Origin: Methanoculleus formosensis
GTDB taxonomy: Archaea; Halobacteriota; Methanomicrobia; Methanomicrobiales; Methanoculleaceae
Direction of reading: 5' to 3'
Assembly: GCF_025384765.1 (NCBI RefSeq)
Contig: NZ_VHLL01000001.1
Location: forward strand, 496,001 to 560,000
DNA length: 64,000 bases
A model generated the notes under the pieces. That model did no database searches and had not been told where the DNA came from. It worked only from the letters and a program-made list of their open reading frames with translations. This document shows, piece after piece, positions 28,099-37,460 of this stretch. Each line of letters opens with the position of its first letter. Position 1 is the first letter of the stretch. The translations under genes and the position numbers were made by a program.

Positions 28099-28611
28099 GG
28101 GGCCCCGGCACTTTTTTCCCACAGGGGAGGAAGACCCCCCCGGCCCGCACCCCCGCCCTCTTCCGTCCAGGGTTCATCCTGTACTCTCGCCGGCCCCTGC
28201 CCCGTGCGGCCCCGGGGCCGCAGGGCTCTGCAGGGTTCGCTCTCGGGGCACCTCTCGGGGCACCTCCGGTTATCTGCACATGCCTGTATTTATCCCTCGC
28301 GGAACGTTCGCAGTTCTTCTGGTGGAATATAATATTTTGGCCTGTGTATTTGCGGCTAAATCGTTTGATGGGATCAATGTTGATTGATTTACGGATTTTT
28401 AATGAGTGAAAATTACTGGAAAGAATCGCTATATTACTGTTGTGTGACGGGGCGATCGTTATACCCCGGTTTGAATTGAAAATTACAGGTATAATGCTCG
28501 GCGTGTTGGCTGTTTTAGTGATGGTGTGCGTTTTTTAATGACTCCCTAAAATCCGGACCAAATGAAAACTCTTATATATATTGCATGGGATCACGGCTCC
28601 CTGATCTCAGC
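28099..28611. other. Intergenic region between relic and second VWA gene
   Basis: The first half is very GC-rich, with C/G runs; the second half turns A/T-rich. CTTATATATA at 28571-28580 is the TATA box of the next gene, giving a leader of only a few bases and supporting ATG 28612 over an earlier in-frame ATG at 28585. No gene was recognised. Confidence 0.45.
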
Positions 28612-31551
28612 ATGAATTTCAAAAAAGTGGTACTCCTCGCGATCCTGCTCGGCCTGATCGTTCCTGCGGCGAGTGCGACGGATCCTGACCGGATCACCCT
28701 CTCAAGCGATCTCGGCTGGCTCGCGGCAGGCGGAGCCGACTCCGCTGAAATAACCGTGCAGGTCTTCGACGGGGGCGGGATGCCGCTCGACAATTGCACT
28801 GTGGCGTTCAAGGTCGACCCGGTCTTCGGCCGCATATCGCCTGCAACCGTCACCACCGGTGCTTCCGGAACCGCGACCACGGCGTTCATCCCCGGCAGGA
28901 CGAGTGGCATCGCCGTGATAACTGCACGGGCCGGGGCTGTAGAGGAGACGTTCTCCCTCCCGATCGACCACGGCCCGGCCGGCCGCGTCACCTACCTTGA
29001 CTACGAGTTCGAGGTTGCCGCAGGTGACGTCACCGTCATCACCGTGGGGCTGGCCGACCGGTACGGCAACCCGGTGGACGATACCCGGGGCACCGAGACC
29101 GTCCGATTCAGCGTCGGTTCGGTCGACGACGATGCCGTCTTCATCGACGATCTGGGGGCGCCGGTGCCCGGGATCGAAAGGACGGTCAACGCCACCGGAC
29201 ACGTTCAGGTGCCTTTCAGAACCGGCCGGGCCGTCGGCGAGAACATCGTCCGGATAACCGCTCTTTCAGGTGGGATCGACCGCTACATCTCCATCCGCGG
29301 CCTCCCGGCCGGAGACCCGGCCGCTATCGCCGTCTCGGTCAACCCCGATGCCGACCCGGAGCCCTACCAACCTGCCGACGGAGAGAGCACGTTCACCCTG
29401 ACCTACCGGCTCTTCGACTCCTGGGGCAACCCCGCAGCCGGCCGGGATATCCGGGTCGCCACCTCCCTTGCAGGGGAAGGCACCCTCCTGACGACAAACG
29501 GCACGGGCGTCGCCCGCCTCACCTACGGCCCGAAGGATACCACCGGCAGGATCACCGTCAACGCAACCGCCGTGGACAACGCAAGCGTGACGGCATCGCA
29601 GGTCGTTGAGTTCGTCCACACCGCTCCTGCAGATATGCTTCTGTCGGCAAACCCCCAGTCGATGCCGAGCCTCGACGTGCCCGGCTCAGGGCCGGCAACT
29701 CTCCGTGCAAAGGTCGTCGATGTGAAAGGAAACCCGGTCGCCGGAGAGAACGTGACCTTCGCCGTCCGGAACATCGATGCCGGCGAATTCGTGCAGGTCA
29801 CCGCCCCCTATCTCTCTGCGTCCTCTGCCAGGACCGATGACGACGGCTACGCGGCCGTCCGATTCTACCCCGGCACGTTCACCACCGACCGGACCGATCC
29901 GCGCTGGAGCGCTGCGGCGAGGGGCGGGTGCGATGTCGTCGCCACGTGGAACGACACCACCCGGACGATACCCCTGGCCTGGGAGAACTACCCCTTCCTC
30001 TCGGTGGAGGCGGAGGTCTCTCCCGGGACGGTGGCGGTGAACGACACGGTGGATGTTACCATCCGGCTCAAAGGCGATGGGTGGGCGCTCCGGCCGGACC
30101 CGATCGATGTGGTGATCTGCACCGACCGGTCGGGGAGCATGCTCTACGACGACCCCGACCGGATGCACTCCGTCCGCGAGGCGGCAAAGGCGTTCGTGGA
30201 TCAGTTCTCGGAGAACCATGATCGCGCGGCCGCCGTCTCGTTCGGGCGTAAAGGATCCATTTCGCGTCCCGGTGCCAACTCCGGCATCGGCACGCACGAG
30301 ATCGATAACGACTACACCTACCCGAAGACCTACGACGACTACGCAACGCTCGATCTCGGGCTCACCCGCGATCTCCCGGCGGTGAAGGGTGCGCTCGACG
30401 GCATCGTCCCCGACCACGGCACCCCGCTCCGGCACGGGCTGAAGGTCTCGATCGACCACCTGGTCGCCGCTGCAGGCGACGATTCGGTAAAAGCCGTGGT
30501 GCTCCTCTCCGACGGCGATTACAACTGGTACGGCGACCCGCTTGCCCGGGGCTCGGGTTCGACCCCTCACTCGCCGGAAGGTTATGGGACGCTGGCCCGG
30601 AGTTACTACCGGTACGCGGATCTCCCCTCGAACTGGCAGAACCTGGCAACTTACGCTGCGGACAACGACATCCGCATCTTCACGATCTCGTATTCGGAGA
30701 GCCTCTCCGACGACGCGAGATCGACGCTCCGGAGCATCGCCGAATCGACCGGCGGGAGATACTACCACGCACCGGCTCCGGATGCCCTGGGGCCGATCTA
30801 CACCGATATCGCCGGGGTCCTCAAGACGGAGGCCGGGGTCAACACCACGATGAGCCTCGACTTCAGCACGGTTCAGGTCAACGGCGAAGACCGGGAAGGG
30901 TCCGGCGTATTCTCCTACGTTTACGAAGACGGGGTCTCGACCGTCATCGAGAGCGTGGTCGTGAACGAGACGGGTCACTATACGATCATGCCGAGAAGAA
31001 CTGTCAACCAGACCGACGACTGGAGCGACGACCGCAACCTGAAGTTCGTGATCGGGACGGTTCACCTCGGTCAGACCTGGGAGGCGACGTTCCGCCTGAG
31101 GGCGCTGACCGACGGCAACATCAACGTCTTCGGGCCCGGCTCAACGATCACGTTCAACGACGCGGCAAAACTCCCCCTCCCCGACACCCTCGTCACCGCC
31201 GTGCCGGATCTCAGCAACACGGGTTTCGGCTCCGCGACGCTCACACTCACAAACCCGCGCTACACCTGCACGGAACCGGTCAGGGAGATCCTCACTGCTG
31301 CCTGGGACCTCACCTACACCGGAGCGGGGACCCTGACCGAGTCCGTAGAGCACTCGAACGACGGCGGCCTCTCCTGGGTGCGGTTCGGGACCGTGACCGG
31401 TGAGGCCGCATCTCTCGATGTCCGGGCATTCCCGCCGGGCGAATACCTGATCCGGGTACGCGCCTCTGCGGACGACGTGCCCGATGCCGGACTGCTCTTC
31501 CCCCCCATCCGGGTCGGGGAGCAGCACACCACGTACATCCGTATCATGTAA
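28612..31551 (+). CDS. Giant secreted VWA protein with Ig-like domains (copy 2)
   Basis: A 979-residue paralogue of the gene at 24700. It has a signal peptide (MNFKKVVLLAILLGLIVPAA), Ig-like domains with the same motifs (ADRYGNPVDD, LFDSWGNPAAG, AKVVDVKGNPVAG), a VWA domain with MIDAS CTDRSGS near residues 503-509 and VVLLSDGDYNWYGDP, and the C-terminal PPGEYLIRVRASADD...YIRIM. The C-terminus lacks a membrane anchor, so attachment to the surface must be non-covalent or via the S-layer. GC content is uniformly high along the whole gene, unlike copy 1. Confidence 0.85.
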   Translation: MNFKKVVLLAILLGLIVPAASATDPDRITLSSDLGWLAAGGADSAEITVQVFDGGGMPLDNCTVAFKVDPVFGRISPATVTTGASGTATTAFIPGRTSGIAVITARAGAVEETFSLPIDHGPAGRVTYLDYEFEVAAGDVTVITVGLADRYGNPVDDTRGTETVRFSVGSVDDDAVFIDDLGAPVPGIERTVNATGHVQVPFRTGRAVGENIVRITALSGGIDRYISIRGLPAGDPAAIAVSVNPDADPEPYQPADGESTFTLTYRLFDSWGNPAAGRDIRVATSLAGEGTLLTTNGTGVARLTYGPKDTTGRITVNATAVDNASVTASQVVEFVHTAPADMLLSANPQSMPSLDVPGSGPATLRAKVVDVKGNPVAGENVTFAVRNIDAGEFVQVTAPYLSASSARTDDDGYAAVRFYPGTFTTDRTDPRWSAAARGGCDVVATWNDTTRTIPLAWENYPFLSVEAEVSPGTVAVNDTVDVTIRLKGDGWALRPDPIDVVICTDRSGSMLYDDPDRMHSVREAAKAFVDQFSENHDRAAAVSFGRKGSISRPGANSGIGTHEIDNDYTYPKTYDDYATLDLGLTRDLPAVKGALDGIVPDHGTPLRHGLKVSIDHLVAAAGDDSVKAVVLLSDGDYNWYGDPLARGSGSTPHSPEGYGTLARSYYRYADLPSNWQNLATYAADNDIRIFTISYSESLSDDARSTLRSIAESTGGRYYHAPAPDALGPIYTDIAGVLKTEAGVNTTMSLDFSTVQVNGEDREGSGVFSYVYEDGVSTVIESVVVNETGHYTIMPRRTVNQTDDWSDDRNLKFVIGTVHLGQTWEATFRLRALTDGNINVFGPGSTITFNDAAKLPLPDTLVTAVPDLSNTGFGSATLTLTNPRYTCTEPVREILTAAWDLTYTGAGTLTESVEHSNDGGLSWVRFGTVTGEAASLDVRAFPPGEYLIRVRASADDVPDAGLLFPPIRVGEQHTTYIRIM

Positions 31552-31719: not shown

Positions 31720-32145
31720 ATGATCCTCTCATCCAGTGAGATCGATCGCCGGCGCGAGAACGGCGATCTCGTCATCGAGCCGTACCATCCTGAATCCCGG
31801 CAGCCCGCATCCTACGACCTCCGGGCGGCCGAAGAGACCGTCCTTCCGCGCGGCGTATGCACCCTTGTCTCCTCGATCGAGCGGGTGGAGCTCCCCGCCG
31901 ACCTCGCCGCAACCCTCCGGTGCCGCTCCTCGCTCGCCCGTCGCGGCGTCCTCCTCGGCGGCGGGTTCGTCGACCCCGGGTTCCGCGGCCAGCTGACGCT
32001 CTGCCTGACGAATGCCGGTCCCGAGGATATCCGCCTCGCAGCGGGCGACCGGATCGTACAGATGATCCTGCAGGAAGTGCTGAATGGCGACCGGCTCTAC
32101 CAGGGCCGGTACCAGGACAGCCTTGGCGCGGTGCATACACGATGA
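31720..32145 (+). CDS. dut: dUTPase / dCTP deaminase superfamily protein, probably dUTPase
   Basis: A 141-residue protein with the superfamily motifs ASYDLRAAEE (motif 1), RCRSSLARRGVLLGGGFVDP and GFRGQLTL, and a C-terminal GDRIVQMILQE. The length fits a trimeric dUTP pyrophosphatase better than dCTP deaminase, and the YDLRA motif 1 is dUTPase-like. The position where deaminases have catalytic Glu (TLE) reads TLC. It would give dUMP for thyA. TATATCAGTA near 31701 may be the promoter. Its stop overlaps the nrpR start as ATGA. Confidence 0.82.
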   Translation: MILSSSEIDRRRENGDLVIEPYHPESRQPASYDLRAAEETVLPRGVCTLVSSIERVELPADLAATLRCRSSLARRGVLLGGGFVDPGFRGQLTLCLTNAGPEDIRLAAGDRIVQMILQEVLNGDRLYQGRYQDSLGAVHTR

Positions 32146-33107
32146 GTCCGTCAATACGCTCGGAACGGAAGTATCTTGAGATCCTGCGGATCCTTGCGGA
32201 ATCGCACGAGCCCCTGGGCGCAAAACGGCTGAGCGAGAAGATGGCCGAGAGGGGTTTCGTCCTGAGCGACCGCGCCGTCCAGTACTACCTCCAGTACCTC
32301 GATGAGATGGGGTTTACAGAGAAGGCCGGGAACCGTGGCCGCCTCCTCACCGAGGCCGGGATCGCCGAGAGCGAGAGCGCGCTCGTCGATCAGCGACTCG
32401 GTTTCATCATATCGAGGCTCGAACAGCTCGCCTTCCGGAGCACCTTCGATCCTCTGACCGCCACGGGGAGCGTCGCCTACAACCTCTCCTTCGTGCGGGA
32501 AGAGGATCTCGGGGCCGTCACGACAGCCTTCGACGAGGTGGTGGCGGCGGGTTACGGGTTCCTCTCCGCCTACCGGGTCGTCGACTCCGACCCCCGCATA
32601 CCCGACGGCCACGCCGGAATCATGACGGCCTGCAGCGTCACGCTGGACGGCGTCCTCCAGAAGATGGGTATCCCGACAAGGCTCGAGTATGCGGGGAGGC
32701 TTGCCGTCGACGAGGACGGCTCCGCCGGGTTCCTCGATCTCATCGGCTACCGCGGGACGTCGGTCGACCCGCTCCACCTCTTCATATCCGCCGGGCTCAC
32801 CTCGATCGACCGGCTGGTGACGACCCGGGCCGGCGTCGCGCTTGCAACCATCCGTGCGGTGCCCGCGGCCGCACGCCACCGGGTGGAGACGACCGTCGGC
32901 CTCATGGAGGAGTGCGGCTTCGCCTTCCCCGCCGGAGGGGGCATCGGCGAGTTCAACCTCCCGAACCACCCCTACCGCCTCCCCGTCGTTGCGTTCAGCG
33001 GCATGAACATGGTCGGGCACGCCGTTGAGAAAGGCTACGTCATCAAAACCGAGATCGGCGCAGGAACCATACCGTTTGGAAAAATAGCGGACGCTACAGC
33101 CAGGTGA
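32142..33107 (+). CDS. nrpR: NrpR, global nitrogen-regulon repressor (single NrpR domain)
   Basis: The 321-residue protein has an N-terminal winged helix (SERKYLEILRILAESHEPLG, SDRAVQYYLQYLDEMGF) and one NrpR/DUF128 domain (SAYRVVDSDPRIPDGHAGIM, FLDLIGYRGTSVDPL, GGGIGEFNLPNHPYRLPV). In methanogens NrpR represses nif and glnA and senses 2-oxoglutarate. Some genera carry two domains in one chain, others split them as NrpRI and NrpRII; this is the split NrpRI type, so a second subunit would be expected elsewhere. It is coupled to dut by an ATGA overlap and converges with the tubulin-like gene, sharing 14 bases. Confidence 0.92.
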   Translation: MSPSIRSERKYLEILRILAESHEPLGAKRLSEKMAERGFVLSDRAVQYYLQYLDEMGFTEKAGNRGRLLTEAGIAESESALVDQRLGFIISRLEQLAFRSTFDPLTATGSVAYNLSFVREEDLGAVTTAFDEVVAAGYGFLSAYRVVDSDPRIPDGHAGIMTACSVTLDGVLQKMGIPTRLEYAGRLAVDEDGSAGFLDLIGYRGTSVDPLHLFISAGLTSIDRLVTTRAGVALATIRAVPAAARHRVETTVGLMEECGFAFPAGGGIGEFNLPNHPYRLPVVAFSGMNMVGHAVEKGYVIKTEIGAGTIPFGKIADATAR

Positions 33108-35034
33108 TACCGCTGTCCGTCTCGTCCGATCGCTTCTCTTCGTTCCGGCTCTTCTGCCGGGCGGTTGCGTCGATCACGTCGAGTTTTCCTCGTGAGGGAT
33201 CGACCTCCTTCGGGGCGGGGCCGGGCCGGGCAAGTCCCCGGCCGGAAGGCCCATCCTTCGGCAAGGGCGCCCCTTCGCGCACGCGCAGGCCGGCTTCCTC
33301 GAAGAGGTCGTCCTTTGGCCGCTGCATCCCCTGACCGAGCGTAACGTGGTCGCCGGTGAACACCCCGTCTTTCGGCCGCTGCACCCCGTGATCCAGGGTG
33401 CCCGCATCTGCCGAAAGCGCCCCCTCTCTCGGCCGCTGCACGGGCTTTAAGGGTGCGGAATAGGTTATTGCATCGTCTTTCGGCCCTGCCTTCTCGATGG
33501 TGATCCCTTTCAGGCCGAAGGTAGAATTCTTCGGGGCGGGCATCGACGAGGTGACGGAGGCCGATCCGGCGAGATCGATCTCCCTCCCGCCCGGTTTCGG
33601 GGGGAGGATGAGTGCCCCGTCATCCTGTTCCTTCTCGGCTTTCGGGAGTATGTCGATGGTATCGTCCCTGCGCTTGTGGCCGCTCTCGCCGCGGCCCGAG
33701 AGCGAGATCATCTCATCCCTCTCCGGTGTGGTTGGTTCAGCCATGTATCCGGTCTCCTCAAGATATGCCGACTCAAAGGGCGAGGCAAACCCGGGGATAT
33801 CGCTCTCGTCCGGCACTTCAGAGATTGCGCCGGCCGCGAGAGCTTCCCCCTCCTCGCGCAGTCGCGCCTCTTCCTCCATCCTCAGTCGCTCTTCCTCGCA
33901 CTCGAGCTGGTATTCCACCCGGATCTCCCGGAGTTCCTCGACCCGGGGGATGTTGGCGAGCCCCGAGAGGACGATGATGATCCCCACATACGATGTGCTC
34001 TTCACCGGGTAGTCGCCCGATCGCATCTCGAGTCCGGCGATGCTTCGATCGATCCATTTTCGGACGGTCTGGAACCCCTTCATCGAGAGTTCGGCCGAAG
34101 GCCCGGCGATCAGCACCAGCGCCTTGTCGGCGCTCGTAAGATCACAGGGAATCGATACGTCTTCATAGACCGCTTTTTTGGCGAGGGAGATGATCCGTGC
34201 GGCCTTCTCCTGCGAACCCTGGATGAAGTCCTTCAGCGACTGCCGCCGGCGGAAGACGTTTCGCCATCCGGTCGGCAGCCGCTCCGTGGCGTAGCCGACC
34301 GCGACGAACCCGTTTCCTTTCAGGGTGTTGAGGACCTCCCCGGCATCCAGAACGATCTCCGCGACTTCGAGCCCGGATTCGTTGAACTCCCCGGCGCGGA
34401 GAAGGAGGCCGATTTGACGTGCAATTCTCTCGTTGAGCATGTTGTAGTGCGTTCTCGGGTCCGACCCTATGGAGGTCTGGCGCAGCTGGCCCATGACGCC
34501 GGCGTTCTCGGCTCCGGCTGCAGCGGCGGCCGCCTTGATCTTCTGCGACCATGTCTCGTTGTCGAAGAGGATGACAGCATCGACGAGTTCCTGGAGCGCG
34601 TCGAGGTCGTCGGCGGCCTTGGCCGAGACCCGCTTCCCTTCCTCCAGGCACGGCAGCACGGCAAGAGCAAAGATCGGCTCCACGTAGGACTTGCGGATCT
34701 CGGCGATGATGAGCGGCGCGATATCGATGACGCTGCCCCCGAGGCCGCAACAGAGGAGGATGGCGTCGATCTCCATCGTATCCATGCTCTGGAGGCGGGT
34801 CATCACCTCCTCGATATCGATCACATTCGTGACAAGGGCGTGATCGGGGATATCGACTCGCGGGAAGAAGATCCTTGCGGGGTTCGGGAGGTGACGGAGT
34901 TGCAGCAGGGAGTTCGGGTCGATGTCGATCGCTACCGCACTCATGCAGTAGACCTTGCTGCGCTGGTCATGGTCGTAGAGTTGATCCACAACCCTCGAGC
35001 CGGCGCCGCCCAATCCTATCGTCAGCACTCGCAT
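33094..35034 (-). CDS. Atypical tubulin/FtsZ-family protein with long repeat-bearing tail
   Basis: A 646-residue protein. Residues 1 to about 390 align by eye with the FtsZ/tubulin core: IGLGGAGSRVVDQL (G-box, residues 6-19), AVAIDIDPNSLLQL, and CCGLGGSVIDIAPLIIAEI in place of the GGGTGTG signature. The T7-like VLDAGEV stands where FtsZ has NxDFADV. GTP binding and hydrolysis are therefore uncertain. From about residue 390 a charged coiled segment (EEERLRMEEEARLREEGEAL) leads to a disordered tail with three 19-residue repeats and the end DETDSGITWL. The start is ATG 35034, directly before the first strand. It is not canonical FtsZ or CetZ. Confidence 0.75.
   Translation of the reverse strand: MRVLTIGLGGAGSRVVDQLYDHDQRSKVYCMSAVAIDIDPNSLLQLRHLPNPARIFFPRVDIPDHALVTNVIDIEEVMTRLQSMDTMEIDAILLCCGLGGSVIDIAPLIIAEIRKSYVEPIFALAVLPCLEEGKRVSAKAADDLDALQELVDAVILFDNETWSQKIKAAAAAAGAENAGVMGQLRQTSIGSDPRTHYNMLNERIARQIGLLLRAGEFNESGLEVAEIVLDAGEVLNTLKGNGFVAVGYATERLPTGWRNVFRRRQSLKDFIQGSQEKAARIISLAKKAVYEDVSIPCDLTSADKALVLIAGPSAELSMKGFQTVRKWIDRSIAGLEMRSGDYPVKSTSYVGIIIVLSGLANIPRVEELREIRVEYQLECEEERLRMEEEARLREEGEALAAGAISEVPDESDIPGFASPFESAYLEETGYMAEPTTPERDEMISLSGRGESGHKRRDDTIDILPKAEKEQDDGALILPPKPGGREIDLAGSASVTSSMPAPKNSTFGLKGITIEKAGPKDDAITYSAPLKPVQRPREGALSADAGTLDHGVQRPKDGVFTGDHVTLGQGMQRPKDDLFEEAGLRVREGAPLPKDGPSGRGLARPGPAPKEVDPSRGKLDVIDATARQKSRNEEKRSDETDSGITWL
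33271..33441 (-). repeat. Three in-frame 57-base tandem repeats in the tubulin-like tail
   Basis: Units at 33385-33441, 33328-33384 and 33271-33327 encode VQRPREGALSADAGTLDHG, VQRPKDGVFTGDHVTLGQG and MQRPKDDLFEEAGLRVREG. The core (V/M)QRP(K/R)(E/D) is conserved while the rest has diverged, so the repeats are old. They lie in the disordered C-terminal tail. Confidence 0.85.
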
Positions 35035-35392
35035 ACGATTATGCTCCCCGTCCGGTGCCTTCGCATGCCCGGGGTGACCTTTGCCGCGCAAGAAGCATGA
35101 ATATCATCAAGAAGTAATGATGAATATGTGGGCGGACGAACATATACGTTTCTGTGCGGTTCCGGATGGGCGAAACCCGATCAATCGCGAAACTTCCCTA
35201 TTAGAACGTTCCGGTTTAACTTTCCCCTGATGAAGCCTCCTTCAGGGTAAGGGAGGGGAATTGCCTGATGCCCGTTAGAACCCGTTACACATCCCCGTTT
35301 TGCACAACCTGTGCTGTGCGTGACGTTTCGAGAGCACAAAATGGTAATATATTTAACCAACCGCACGTAACTACTCATTGAGGTGCATAGCC
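35035..35392. promoter_or_regulatory. Divergent region with the mer promoter and ribosome binding site
   Basis: TAATATATTTAA at 35345-35356 is the mer TATA box; transcription should start near 35376-35380. GAGGTG at 35380-35385 is a ribosome binding site seven bases before TTG 35393. A short inverted repeat (CCTGA...TCAGG, near 35227-35247) lies upstream. No gene was seen in the rest. Confidence 0.6.
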
Positions 35393-36385
35393 TTGACTAC
35401 ATATGGAATTGAATTTGTGCCCGGATCAATCAACGTCAAGCAGGTGGTGAACTACACCAAGCTTGCAGAGTCGAAGGATATCGACTACGCTTGGATTACG
35501 AACCACTACAACAACCGTCATGCGTATCCGACCCTTGCCATGATCGCGGCAAACACCGACACGATCAAGATGGGACCGGGTATCATGAACACGTTCACCG
35601 ACACCCCGGCAGCCATCGCGTCCTTCATGGCTACCCTGAACGAGATCTCCGACGGACGTGCCGTCCTCGGTATCGGACCCGGCGACCTCTCGACGCTCCC
35701 CAAGCTCGCGATCGCCCCCGCCAAGCCTGTCGCCCGCCTGAAGGAAGGCGTCGTGCAGATCCGCAATCTCCTCTCCGGTGAAGAGGTCAAGAAGACCGGC
35801 AACATGGAGTTCTTCGACTACGACGGCGCGAAGCTGACCGGCGTCACCCTGCCCGGCAAGAAGGGTATCCCGGTCTACATCGGTGCCCAGGGCCCCAAGA
35901 TGCTTCAGCTCGCCGGCGAGATCGGTGAGGGCGCCCTGATCAACGCCTCGAACCCCAAGGACTTCGAGATCGCCATCCCGCTCATCAAGGAAGCGATGGA
36001 TAAGGTCGGCAAGAAGAAGTTCGACGTCGGCGCCTACACCGCCATGTCCATCGACAGGGACGAGAAGAAGGCCCGGAACGCCGCAAAGATCGTTGCCGCA
36101 TTCATCGCCGCCGGATCCCCGCCCGACCTCCTCAAGCGCCACGGACTCAACCTCGACAACGTCGCGAAGATCAAGGAAGCGCTCGGCCGCTTTGACTTCA
36201 AGGCCGTCGGCGGACTTGTCACCGACGCGGAGATCGACGCCTTCACCATCGCCGGAACCCCCGACATGGTCAAGCAGAAGTGCGAAGACCTTGCAAAGTC
36301 CGGAGTTACCCAGATCATCTTCGGCTCGCCGCTCGGCCCCGACATGACCAACTCCATCCGCCTCCTCGGCAAGTACATTGTCTGA
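35393..36385 (+). CDS. mer: F420-dependent 5,10-methylenetetrahydromethanopterin reductase
   Basis: The 330-residue protein reads TTYGIEFVPGSINVKQVVNY at its N-terminus and has the conserved MGPGIMNTFTDTPAAIASFM and GRAVLGIGPGDLSTL of Mer. This enzyme of the luciferase-like TIM-barrel group reduces methylene-H4MPT to methyl-H4MPT with F420H2, a central step of methanogenesis from CO2. The best start is TTG 35393: it follows GAGGTG by seven bases and matches the usual Mer N-terminus; an earlier TTG at 35378 precedes that site. Codon choice is highly biased, fitting abundant expression. Mtd, the preceding step, is at 39616. Confidence 0.96.
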   Translation: MTTYGIEFVPGSINVKQVVNYTKLAESKDIDYAWITNHYNNRHAYPTLAMIAANTDTIKMGPGIMNTFTDTPAAIASFMATLNEISDGRAVLGIGPGDLSTLPKLAIAPAKPVARLKEGVVQIRNLLSGEEVKKTGNMEFFDYDGAKLTGVTLPGKKGIPVYIGAQGPKMLQLAGEIGEGALINASNPKDFEIAIPLIKEAMDKVGKKKFDVGAYTAMSIDRDEKKARNAAKIVAAFIAAGSPPDLLKRHGLNLDNVAKIKEALGRFDFKAVGGLVTDAEIDAFTIAGTPDMVKQKCEDLAKSGVTQIIFGSPLGPDMTNSIRLLGKYIV

Positions 36386-36530: not shown

Positions 36531-37460
36531 ATGTTCACCACCCGCGAGATCCTGACGGAACGGGGAATCCTCCAGTACCGTCAGGAGTGTCTCACCGGCA
36601 TCCGGTGCCGGATCAGCCCCGTCCGGGTCGAGAGGAAGATCGACGCCGCTCCTGCCATGCCTTCATCCCGTGACGGCTGCCCCTTCTGCCCCGGTGCTAT
36701 CGATACCTCCACCCCGACGTTCGAGGACGGCAACCGGCTCCGGTGCGGGGAGAGCGTGACGTTCCCGAACCTCTACCCGTTCGCCGGGCGCCACGTGGTT
36801 ACGGTGATCACGCCCGATCACGGGCCCGGCCGGTTCGGTGTGAAGTCCCTTGCGGACGCCATATCCGGCACGGCAGAGGCCCTCGCTCGGTCTCCTGGAT
36901 ATGCAAGCATCAACTGGAATCATCTCCCATCGGCGGGCGCGAGCATCGTCCACCCGCACCTGCAGGGCATCGCCGACGCGGAGCCCACCCGCCTCGCGGA
37001 GCTCTACATCTCCGGCGGCCGCCGCTATCTCGCCGATCACGGCCGCCTCTACTGGGACGACCTCGTGGAACGCGAACGCTGCTCGGAGCGGTTCCTCTTC
37101 GAGGACGAGATCTTCTGGTCGGCGAACCCCGTCCCCCTCGGCGAGCGGGAGGTGCGGGGGATCCTCCCGGTATCGGCGCTTGACGAACTCGGACCGTATC
37201 TCGAACCGCTGGCCGGGGGTATCCTCCGGGTCGTCGACTTTTACCGGAGCCTCGGCACCTACGCTTTCAACGCCTCGATCTTCTTTGATGCCCCCGGAAA
37301 TGCCGGGCAGGGTCACCGTGCCTTCTGCTCCATCATCGCACGGCTCAACCCGAACACCTTCTCCATGTGCGACTCGGCGTTCATGGAACGGCTGCACCTG
37401 GAACCGATCATCCTGACGCTCCCCGAGGATCTCGGTGCGCTCTTCCGTGAGAAAAGTTAA
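36531..37460 (+). CDS. Galactose-1-phosphate uridylyltransferase-like protein (HIT superfamily)
   Basis: The 309-residue protein has CPFCPG, which resembles the zinc site, NLYPFAGRHVV, and the nucleotidyl-transfer motif ASIVHPHLQG (HPHxQ), which places it with GalT-type HIT enzymes. Archaeal members transfer UMP or AMP between sugar phosphates or act on dinucleoside polyphosphates, so the exact substrate is open. It is followed after 26 bases by an aldehyde dehydrogenase on the same strand and may be co-transcribed with it. Confidence 0.8.
   Translation: MFTTREILTERGILQYRQECLTGIRCRISPVRVERKIDAAPAMPSSRDGCPFCPGAIDTSTPTFEDGNRLRCGESVTFPNLYPFAGRHVVTVITPDHGPGRFGVKSLADAISGTAEALARSPGYASINWNHLPSAGASIVHPHLQGIADAEPTRLAELYISGGRRYLADHGRLYWDDLVERERCSERFLFEDEIFWSANPVPLGEREVRGILPVSALDELGPYLEPLAGGILRVVDFYRSLGTYAFNASIFFDAPGNAGQGHRAFCSIIARLNPNTFSMCDSAFMERLHLEPIILTLPEDLGALFREKS

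Follow-up and report, generated by a model that had tools for sequence, protein, structure and literature searches.

A CetZ-type paralog without the T4 phosphate loop, very probably a pseudo-GTPase, is fixed throughout the Methanomicrobiales

The gene described here lies on the minus strand of a 64,000-nucleotide stretch of the Methanoculleus formosensis genome (NCBI RefSeq assembly GCF_025384765.1, contig NZ_VHLL01000001.1, positions 496,001 to 560,000; hereafter the window, whose first letter is position 1). Its product very probably represents a CetZ-type paralog that has turned into a pseudo-GTPase and that is fixed in this condition throughout the order Methanomicrobiales. The open frame encodes 646 amino acids, ends in a TAG stop codon at 33094-33096 and opens with a start region (MRVL or similar) that is common to its relatives. 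The gene and the part of it that encodes the folded core are located as follows:

33094-35034, minus strand: whole gene, T4-less CetZ paralog of 646 aa (open frame, Pfam and structure-homolog matches, shared start)
33916-35034, minus strand: globular CetZ-type core, residues 1-373, with GTPase-like and CetZ_C domains (PF00091 at residues 3-164, PF21011 at residues 195-372; structural model; Z score of 37.5 to 4b46)

The protein matches the Pfam families CetZ_C (PF21011; 1.9e-46) and Tubulin (1.7e-11), the former with 158 bits against a cut-off of 21.6, and CetZ_C is also matched by 53/53 members of the family alignment A2. The nearest proteins of solved structure are CetZ1 (4b46; 1e-56) and CetZ2 (4b45; 8.4e-31), and these matches, taken together with those to Pfam, indicate that the homology to tubulins is not due to chance. 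The NCBIfam ftsZ equivalog scores 35.7 bits, far under its cut-off of 295.2. An AlphaFold2 model of residues 1-391, which leaves the tail outside and was built on a 53-row alignment, has a mean per-residue confidence (pLDDT) of 82.7 and a predicted TM-score (pTM) of 0.84. In a structural comparison of this model by VIA-align, the Z scores were 37.5 for both Haloferax volcanii CetZ structures (4b46 and 4b45) and 35.7 for the Methanosaeta CetZ (3zid), and, among the 50 matches listed, lower values went to TubZ (30-31) and tubulins (about 28-29); by this ranking, the predicted fold of the core is that of the tubulin superfamily and is closest to CetZ. A preliminary description of this DNA had regarded the protein as neither canonical FtsZ nor CetZ. 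The structure prediction that it put forward as a check yielded a tubulin-type fold with CetZ as best match, not an unrelated one, and the separation from FtsZ stands on the equivalog score, but the exclusion from CetZ does not, since CetZ_C, the fold and an FtsZ-rooted tree make the protein a divergent CetZ paralog. The divergence is unevenly spread: compared with the canonical CetZ of the same genome, the Tubulin match falls to 45 from 110 bits and the CetZ_C match to 158 from 243, which suggests that the GTPase domain is more decayed than the C-terminal domain.

The nucleotide-pocket and catalytic loops were read in 75 proteins from the survey genomes (that of the window included) and in 73 of 80 named loci with a complete frame, amounting to 118 distinct members, all of which end in a proper stop codon. 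The family was gathered by similarity to the window protein and the counts of motif loss hold within that set; nonetheless, because of the conserved synteny and the presence of the family in every genome of the order in a draw of 294 genomes (both described below), we take its members to be orthologs and not a selected subset. In the window protein the translation bears out the letters of the preliminary description (GLGGAGSRVVDQL, AIDID, GLGGSVIDIAP, VLDAGEVLNT and the C-terminal DETDSGITWL), and the loops are placed as follows:

34987-35019, minus strand: T1 glycine loop GLGGAGSRVVD, residues 6-16, kept (G7, G9 and G12 in 118/118)
34918-34932, minus strand: T2 AIDID, residues 35-39, in which the CetZ Asn is replaced by Asp37 (D in 117/118; N in 14/14 canonical CetZ)
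34807-34872, minus strand: T3 region, residues 55-76, shortened (19-27 residues in 118/118, against 30 in 14/14 canonical CetZ)
34711-34746, minus strand: T4 region GLGGSVIDIAPL, residues 97-108, with GLGG kept, GTGSGG lost and an acid at 104 (no GGTG-type loop in 118 members; D or E at 104 in 101/118)
34549-34563, minus strand: T6 DNETW, residues 158-162, with Asn159 (N in 118/118)
34432-34434, minus strand: H7 Asn201 (N in 116/118)
34324-34359, minus strand: T7 catalytic loop EIVLDAGEVLNT, residues 226-237 (D230 in 118/118, E233 in 117 and D in the remaining one, N236 in 118/118)

The T4 phosphate loop G-x-G-G-G-T-G-S-G, which reads GLGGGTGSGG in the 14 canonical CetZs read, occurs in none of the 118 members, nor does any other GGTG-type loop. 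The loss of the signature noted in the preliminary description is thus a property of the family, and none of the relatives carries the full loop that might have pointed to an error in this one genome; likewise, the same loop, shorter by one residue, is found across the 118 members, which rules out a sequencing error or frameshift at T4. What remains of T4 is strictly kept (G97 and G99 in 118/118, G100 in 117/118) and is followed, in 101/118 members, by an Asp or Glu at position 104, which at the start of helix H3 would lie near the expected place of the phosphates. The T5 positions P128 and E132 are nearly invariant, as are Asn159 and Asn201, which we take, respectively, to be a guanine contact, as in FtsZ and CetZ structures, and the second guanine-contact position. 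The T7 loop has its Asp and Glu/Asp pair in 118/118 members, as canonical CetZ does. The acids of T7 had been correctly described as kept, but the absence of its Asn, which had been singled out, is not special: canonical CetZs read VVDSSE there, so that the missing Asn is typical of CetZ and the loop is intact by CetZ standards. As read from these alignments, therefore, the loop presumed to grip the triphosphate is lost and T3 is shortened, whereas T7 with its two acids is essentially invariant and the putative guanine-contact positions are kept. Such strict retention of T7 is not expected of a protein freed from filament contacts, and the earlier suggestion of a non-GTPase cytoskeletal or regulatory relative finds a counterpart in the probable pseudo-GTPase, with a predicted regulatory or cytoskeletal role, proposed here.

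The T4-less state is old and fixed. Clear family matches are found in 60/61 close genomes, the exception (G025) being an assembly 86% complete and broken into 370 contigs, in which a canonical CetZ gives the best match. Among 294 genomes drawn evenly from the phylum, every one of the 55 that belong to the order (12 of the same genus, that of the window included, and 43 others of the order) matches at 1.1e-87 or better, extending the family across the Methanomicrobiales, and no match this strong was obtained in the other 239, in which the best (1.6e-54) is a CetZ. The named relatives, considering the best 80 of 158, include Methanoculleus, Methanogenium, Methanofollis, Methanomicrobium, Methanocalculus and Methanoregula. 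The genome of the window encodes four proteins over the Pfam Tubulin cut-off, which by names assigned from their sequences would be two FtsZs, one CetZ and the protein under study, and at least four Tubulin-family proteins are present in 55/61 close genomes; a normal CetZ and FtsZs thus usually coexist with the T4-less paralog. Separately, a record titled Thermoplasmata archaeon isolate 3300003432D (L226) carries a family member beside mer and NrpR, and is probably a mislabelled or contaminated metagenome-assembled genome.

A quick tree of 76 rows, restricted to CetZ-type proteins and FtsZ with the latter as outgroup and holding 29 of the 75 family proteins from survey genomes, places the family on the CetZ side, nested among CetZs, with a support of 65 for the family alone and of 99 for its union with a set of short proteins. 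The latter come from four genomes of a group here labelled f9 (L259-L262), each with a short second CetZ-like protein of 309-324 aa in which the T4 glycines are lost and the T7 D..D is kept; the combination of T4 loss and T7 retention may accordingly have more than one origin or be older than the family. A careful unrooted tree of 50 rows, which retained 15 of the 29 family rows and was built without the FtsZs, without two strongly divergent family members and without four divergent rows from other groups, recovers the family at 96/97 and sets all canonical CetZs beyond a 99/96 branch. Long branches meet there, which makes both the pairing with f9 and the apparent age of the split uncertain, and the family might be either a deep branch or a fast-evolving nested paralog. 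Duplication of the Methanomicrobiales CetZ within the order is disfavoured, as the canonical rows of the order join those of another group (89 in the quick tree, 95/84 in the careful one). As a further observation on T4, two genomes of groups f13 and f21 (L158, L159, L256, L263) hold adjacent CetZ pairs in which a normal T4 stands beside an altered loop (DLGSGTGSGAG or GLGGGTGGGSG). Our guess is that f9 corresponds to Archaeoglobi and f13, f17, f21 and f23 to Haloarchaea.

Two CetZs per complete Methanomicrobiales genome, one of them deep-branching and the two perhaps forming functional pairs, have been described (Brown and Duggin 2023, PMC9856176), and the same work reports a deep-branching CetZ, unlike those of Halobacteria, in Methanomicrobiales and Archaeoglobales. 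Given the coincidence in two CetZs per genome, one of them divergent, the T4-less family is probably that second group. A word search of the main text of PMC9856176 gave no hit for GGGTGTG, T4 loop, catalytic or degenerate. The absence of key motifs from some archaeal FtsZ paralogs appears as a general remark in Makarova and Koonin (2010, PMC2875224). An open-access literature search returned no report of T4 loss in CetZ among titles and abstract openings, and no paper that combines 'pseudoGTPase' and 'FtsZ'. The family described here is an order-wide CetZ with T4 loss, a probable pseudo-GTPase, most members of which bear an FtsZ-like C-terminal peptide.

Beyond the core, members differ greatly in length (371-1134 aa overall), and the tail of the window protein, in which residues 379-646 match no Pfam family, comprises the following elements:

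33820-33942, minus strand: charged helix or coiled-coil-like segment, residues 365-405 (model helix at 363-390, the model ending at 391; remainder by eye)
33121-33819, minus strand: presumed disordered linker, residues 406-638 (tail composition, no Pfam match)
33271-33441, minus strand: three weak 19-residue repeats, residues 532-588 (9, 7 and 4 of 19 identities between copies)
33097-33126, minus strand: C-terminal peptide DETDSGITWL, residues 637-646, like an FtsZ C-terminal peptide (W[ILVM]x? end in 92/107 tailed members)

The tails of the family are rich in P, E, G, S, K, D and R and poor in C and W (0.16% of internal residues for the latter). The three repeats first described in the tail do exist, but they are weak. 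As a conserved module they are not convincing: one to three QRPKD-type units occur in 10/15 members examined and none in the other five, and a DNA repeat search of the tail gave short, weak copies only.

The end of the tail is a different matter. Among tailed members (at least 460 aa, n=107), 92 end in W[ILVM] followed by at most one residue, typically as an acidic run and GI[T/S/D]W[I/L] or similar (mostly [I/L]xW[I/L]), whereas W[ILVM] is found only 12 times in the 30,976 residues of the internal tails; the ten residues before the motif hold 4.3 D/E on average, compared with 1.6 per 10 for the tail as a whole. A W in the last eight residues is absent from the 14 canonical CetZs of the order and from 31 other CetZ-type proteins. 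A narrow DNA pattern (GI-x-W-[ILVM]-end with a limited set of x), used to look for a second protein with the same end in the genome of the window, gave two matches, the other of which closes a 19-residue frame and was taken as chance, looser ends not having been searched. In the FtsZs of the order, with FtsZ1 and FtsZ2 labels assigned by us and ends counted by eye, FtsZ1 ends in [FY][DE]IDF[LM][KR] at 19/19 loci, while the 17 FtsZ2 ends divide into 8 LIDF[LI](R), 6 [DE]W[VI]x and 3 variable ones; the (D/E)W(V/I) form takes the place of LIDF(L/I) in two of the order's families, f5 and f6, in the members sampled (L091, L095, L101, L104, L106, L109). Archaeal SepF has been shown to bind the C-terminal end of FtsZ in Methanobrevibacter smithii (Pende 2021, PMC8178401); according to that study, the binding centres on a GID motif, which hardly varies among archaeal FtsZ ends, and includes ion pairs from SepF to acidic residues. 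SepF is encoded in the genome of the window, the sole genome searched for it. By its letters, the tail peptide resembles the presumed SepF-binding end of archaeal FtsZ1 and FtsZ2, including those of the same order, in keeping with the docking motif first suggested for it.

The locus itself is well conserved. The two genes that flank the paralog in the window are these:

35378-36385, plus strand: mer (methylenetetrahydromethanopterin reductase), divergent (NCBIfam equivalogs over cut-off)
32142-33107, plus strand: NrpR-like regulator, convergent, start approximate (Pfam NRD1_2 and HTH_12)

The segment 31657-40500 holds dcd, the NrpR-like gene, the T4-less CetZ gene, mer and mtd, in an order conserved over much of the Methanomicrobiales, and the identities of mer, mtd, dcd and NrpR are backed by family models. 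Of the named loci that extend 700 bp or more upstream, 63/65 have a divergent mer within 1500 bp, and mtd is often found beyond it, after an intervening gene that looks galT-like; where at least 2600 bp are available past the core match, the NrpR-like gene is convergent in 56/66 named loci and dcd is present in 63/66. In 20 further representative genomes, a selection that takes in tailless and highly divergent members, the corresponding figures are 18/20 for mer, 14/20 for the NrpR-like gene and 16/20 for dcd. The stop ends of the paralog and the NrpR-like gene overlap by 14 bases (33094-33107). Between mer and an aldehyde dehydrogenase gene, a frame at 36531-37460 that is kept in many relatives looks galT-like by eye and has no NCBIfam or Pfam match at 1e-5. 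Upstream of dcd, 28585-31551 encodes a large protein with Pfam Big_1, Invasin_D3 and VWA domains, whose relatives show about 30-94% identity. Membership in an FtsZ-like 1/von Willebrand system, which a nearby von Willebrand-domain protein could have hinted at, was rejected, with PF13809 (Tubulin_2, FtsZ-like 1) at 11.9 bits under its cut-off of 27 and mer as the commonest conserved neighbour. In a Methanoculleus co-culture transcriptome, an operon with von Willebrand proteins, mer, mtd and a CetZ is raised by shaking and stirring (PMC12008871); that paper names mer and mtd as upregulated, is silent on any rise of the CetZ gene itself, and considers that CetZ likely has a different role in coccoid Methanoculleus from that in Haloferax. 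By its gene content, that operon would be the present locus.

In filaments of FtsZ or tubulin, a subunit has its GTPase site completed by the T7 loop of the adjacent subunit. A protein that keeps T7 and has lost T3 and T4 features could bind the GTP-bearing end of a filament without extending it in the normal way, and the paralog is probably a regulator or adaptor of tubulin-like filaments rather than an ordinary subunit. The usual GTP-dependent contact would no longer form at its top (nucleotide) face, whereas its bottom (T7) face could still dock on a protofilament of canonical CetZ (or FtsZ), at the end where GTP is exposed, and complete the active site there, so that filaments might be capped or shortened, or their nucleotide state set, with no extension. 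The tail peptide, in turn, could tie the paralog to SepF, which anchors FtsZ in archaea; the paralog would then act at the membrane or the site of division and couple the CetZ and FtsZ systems. Taken whole, this mechanism, in which a one-faced pseudo-GTPase anchored by SepF docks on the ends of CetZ (or FtsZ) filaments, caps them or triggers hydrolysis there, is a tentative proposal, plausible but short of probable. Its most specific version, an order-wide one-faced subunit whose T7 both caps canonical CetZ and triggers GTP hydrolysis and whose FtsZ-mimicking tail, held by SepF, wires the CetZ cytoskeleton to the FtsZ divisome, is unlikely to hold in every part. Several observations weigh against the proposal. 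Retention of the guanine-contact residues points to some nucleotide still being bound, and residues 215-227, just before T7, fall below a pLDDT of 50 in the model. The residue before the terminal W is T in 41, S in 20, F in 12 and D in only 8 of 92 ends, so that the Asp of GID is mostly not retained; the end motif is moreover missing in 15/107 tailed members and in all 11 short ones, and the peptide is hence not required in every species. Both the capping and the SepF-bridging roles should be understood as predictions.

Other explanations can account for part of these data. The paralog might serve as a nucleotide-independent scaffold, either polymerizing with itself, the T7 of one copy entering the altered top pocket of the next, or static, its tail recruiting partners to the envelope. 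Conservation of both T7 and the remaining pocket is what self-contact would need, the core is predicted to adopt a full tubulin fold and the range of lengths points to an adaptable tail; FtsZ and tubulin contacts, however, normally need the nucleotide bound by T3 and T4, and the conserved acid at 104 would face the incoming T7 acids, all of which makes a scaffold possible, if rather unlikely. Should GLGG and the start of helix H3 provide an alternative phosphate site, the protein could still be a GTPase, and the Tubulin match over the Pfam cut-off and the near invariance of T1, GLGG, T5, T6 and H7 positions would be in line with this. We consider it quite unlikely in view of the shortened T3 and the loss of GTGSGG in 118/118 members, to which the acid adjoining the expected phosphate site in 101/118 must be added.

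The pocket could also hold another ligand, such as guanosine, guanosine monophosphate (GMP) or a dinucleotide or cofactor, and act as a sensor that links shape or division to the methanogenic state. The pattern GxGGAG...AIDxD resembles a Rossmann dinucleotide fingerprint, Asp37 is present in 117/118 members and the divergent mer, often with mtd beyond it, is a neighbour in most loci; but the fold and the guanine-contact residues are of the tubulin type and a conserved neighbourhood need not imply a shared function, and this reading appears distinctly improbable. Finally, the loss of a signature motif might be thought to reflect a decaying paralog without function, to which we assign next to no probability, for it is already contradicted by the presence of the family in 55/55 genomes of the order, its near-invariant motif positions, its synteny and its intact frames. 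What defines the filaments of the tubulin family is a contact between two faces with GTP sandwiched in between. A conserved natural subunit that has lost its phosphate side and kept its catalytic side would lend itself directly to testing how capping and hydrolysis are split between the faces. It could explain why two different CetZs are retained per genome, and in methanogens it may physically connect the CetZ system of cell shape with the FtsZ-SepF system of division.

The closest known system is canonical CetZ, as represented by Haloferax volcanii CetZ1 (4b46) and CetZ2 (4b45) and by the other CetZs of the Methanomicrobiales, with which the paralog shares the CetZ_C and Tubulin domains and the V-x-D-x-x-E of T7. 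In contrast to them, it has lost the GLGGGTGSGG of T4, has a shortened T3 and an Asp for the T2 Asn, and carries a long tail, the end of which is of the GI(T/S/D)W(I/L) type where canonical CetZs end in a DDGIEPLFE-type sequence. A likeness can also be drawn with chloroplast ARC3, a ring regulator with a degenerate FtsZ domain and an extra C-terminal region, which differs from the paralog in lineage and tail. The septin fold, for its part, is unrelated to the tubulin-type fold of the paralog. In pseudoGTPase septins the likeness is one of behaviour, these being described as filament subunits that have degenerated as GTPases and act in hetero-oligomers (PMC10731463). The deep-branching CetZs of PMC9856176 are probably the same Methanomicrobiales proteins. 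With the FtsZ1 and FtsZ2 whose C-terminal peptide binds SepF, as described in PMC8178401, the paralog has in common a core followed by a linker, then an acidic run and last a GI(D)-aromatic-aliphatic end, although its core is that of a CetZ and the Asp of GID is mostly replaced by Thr or Ser.

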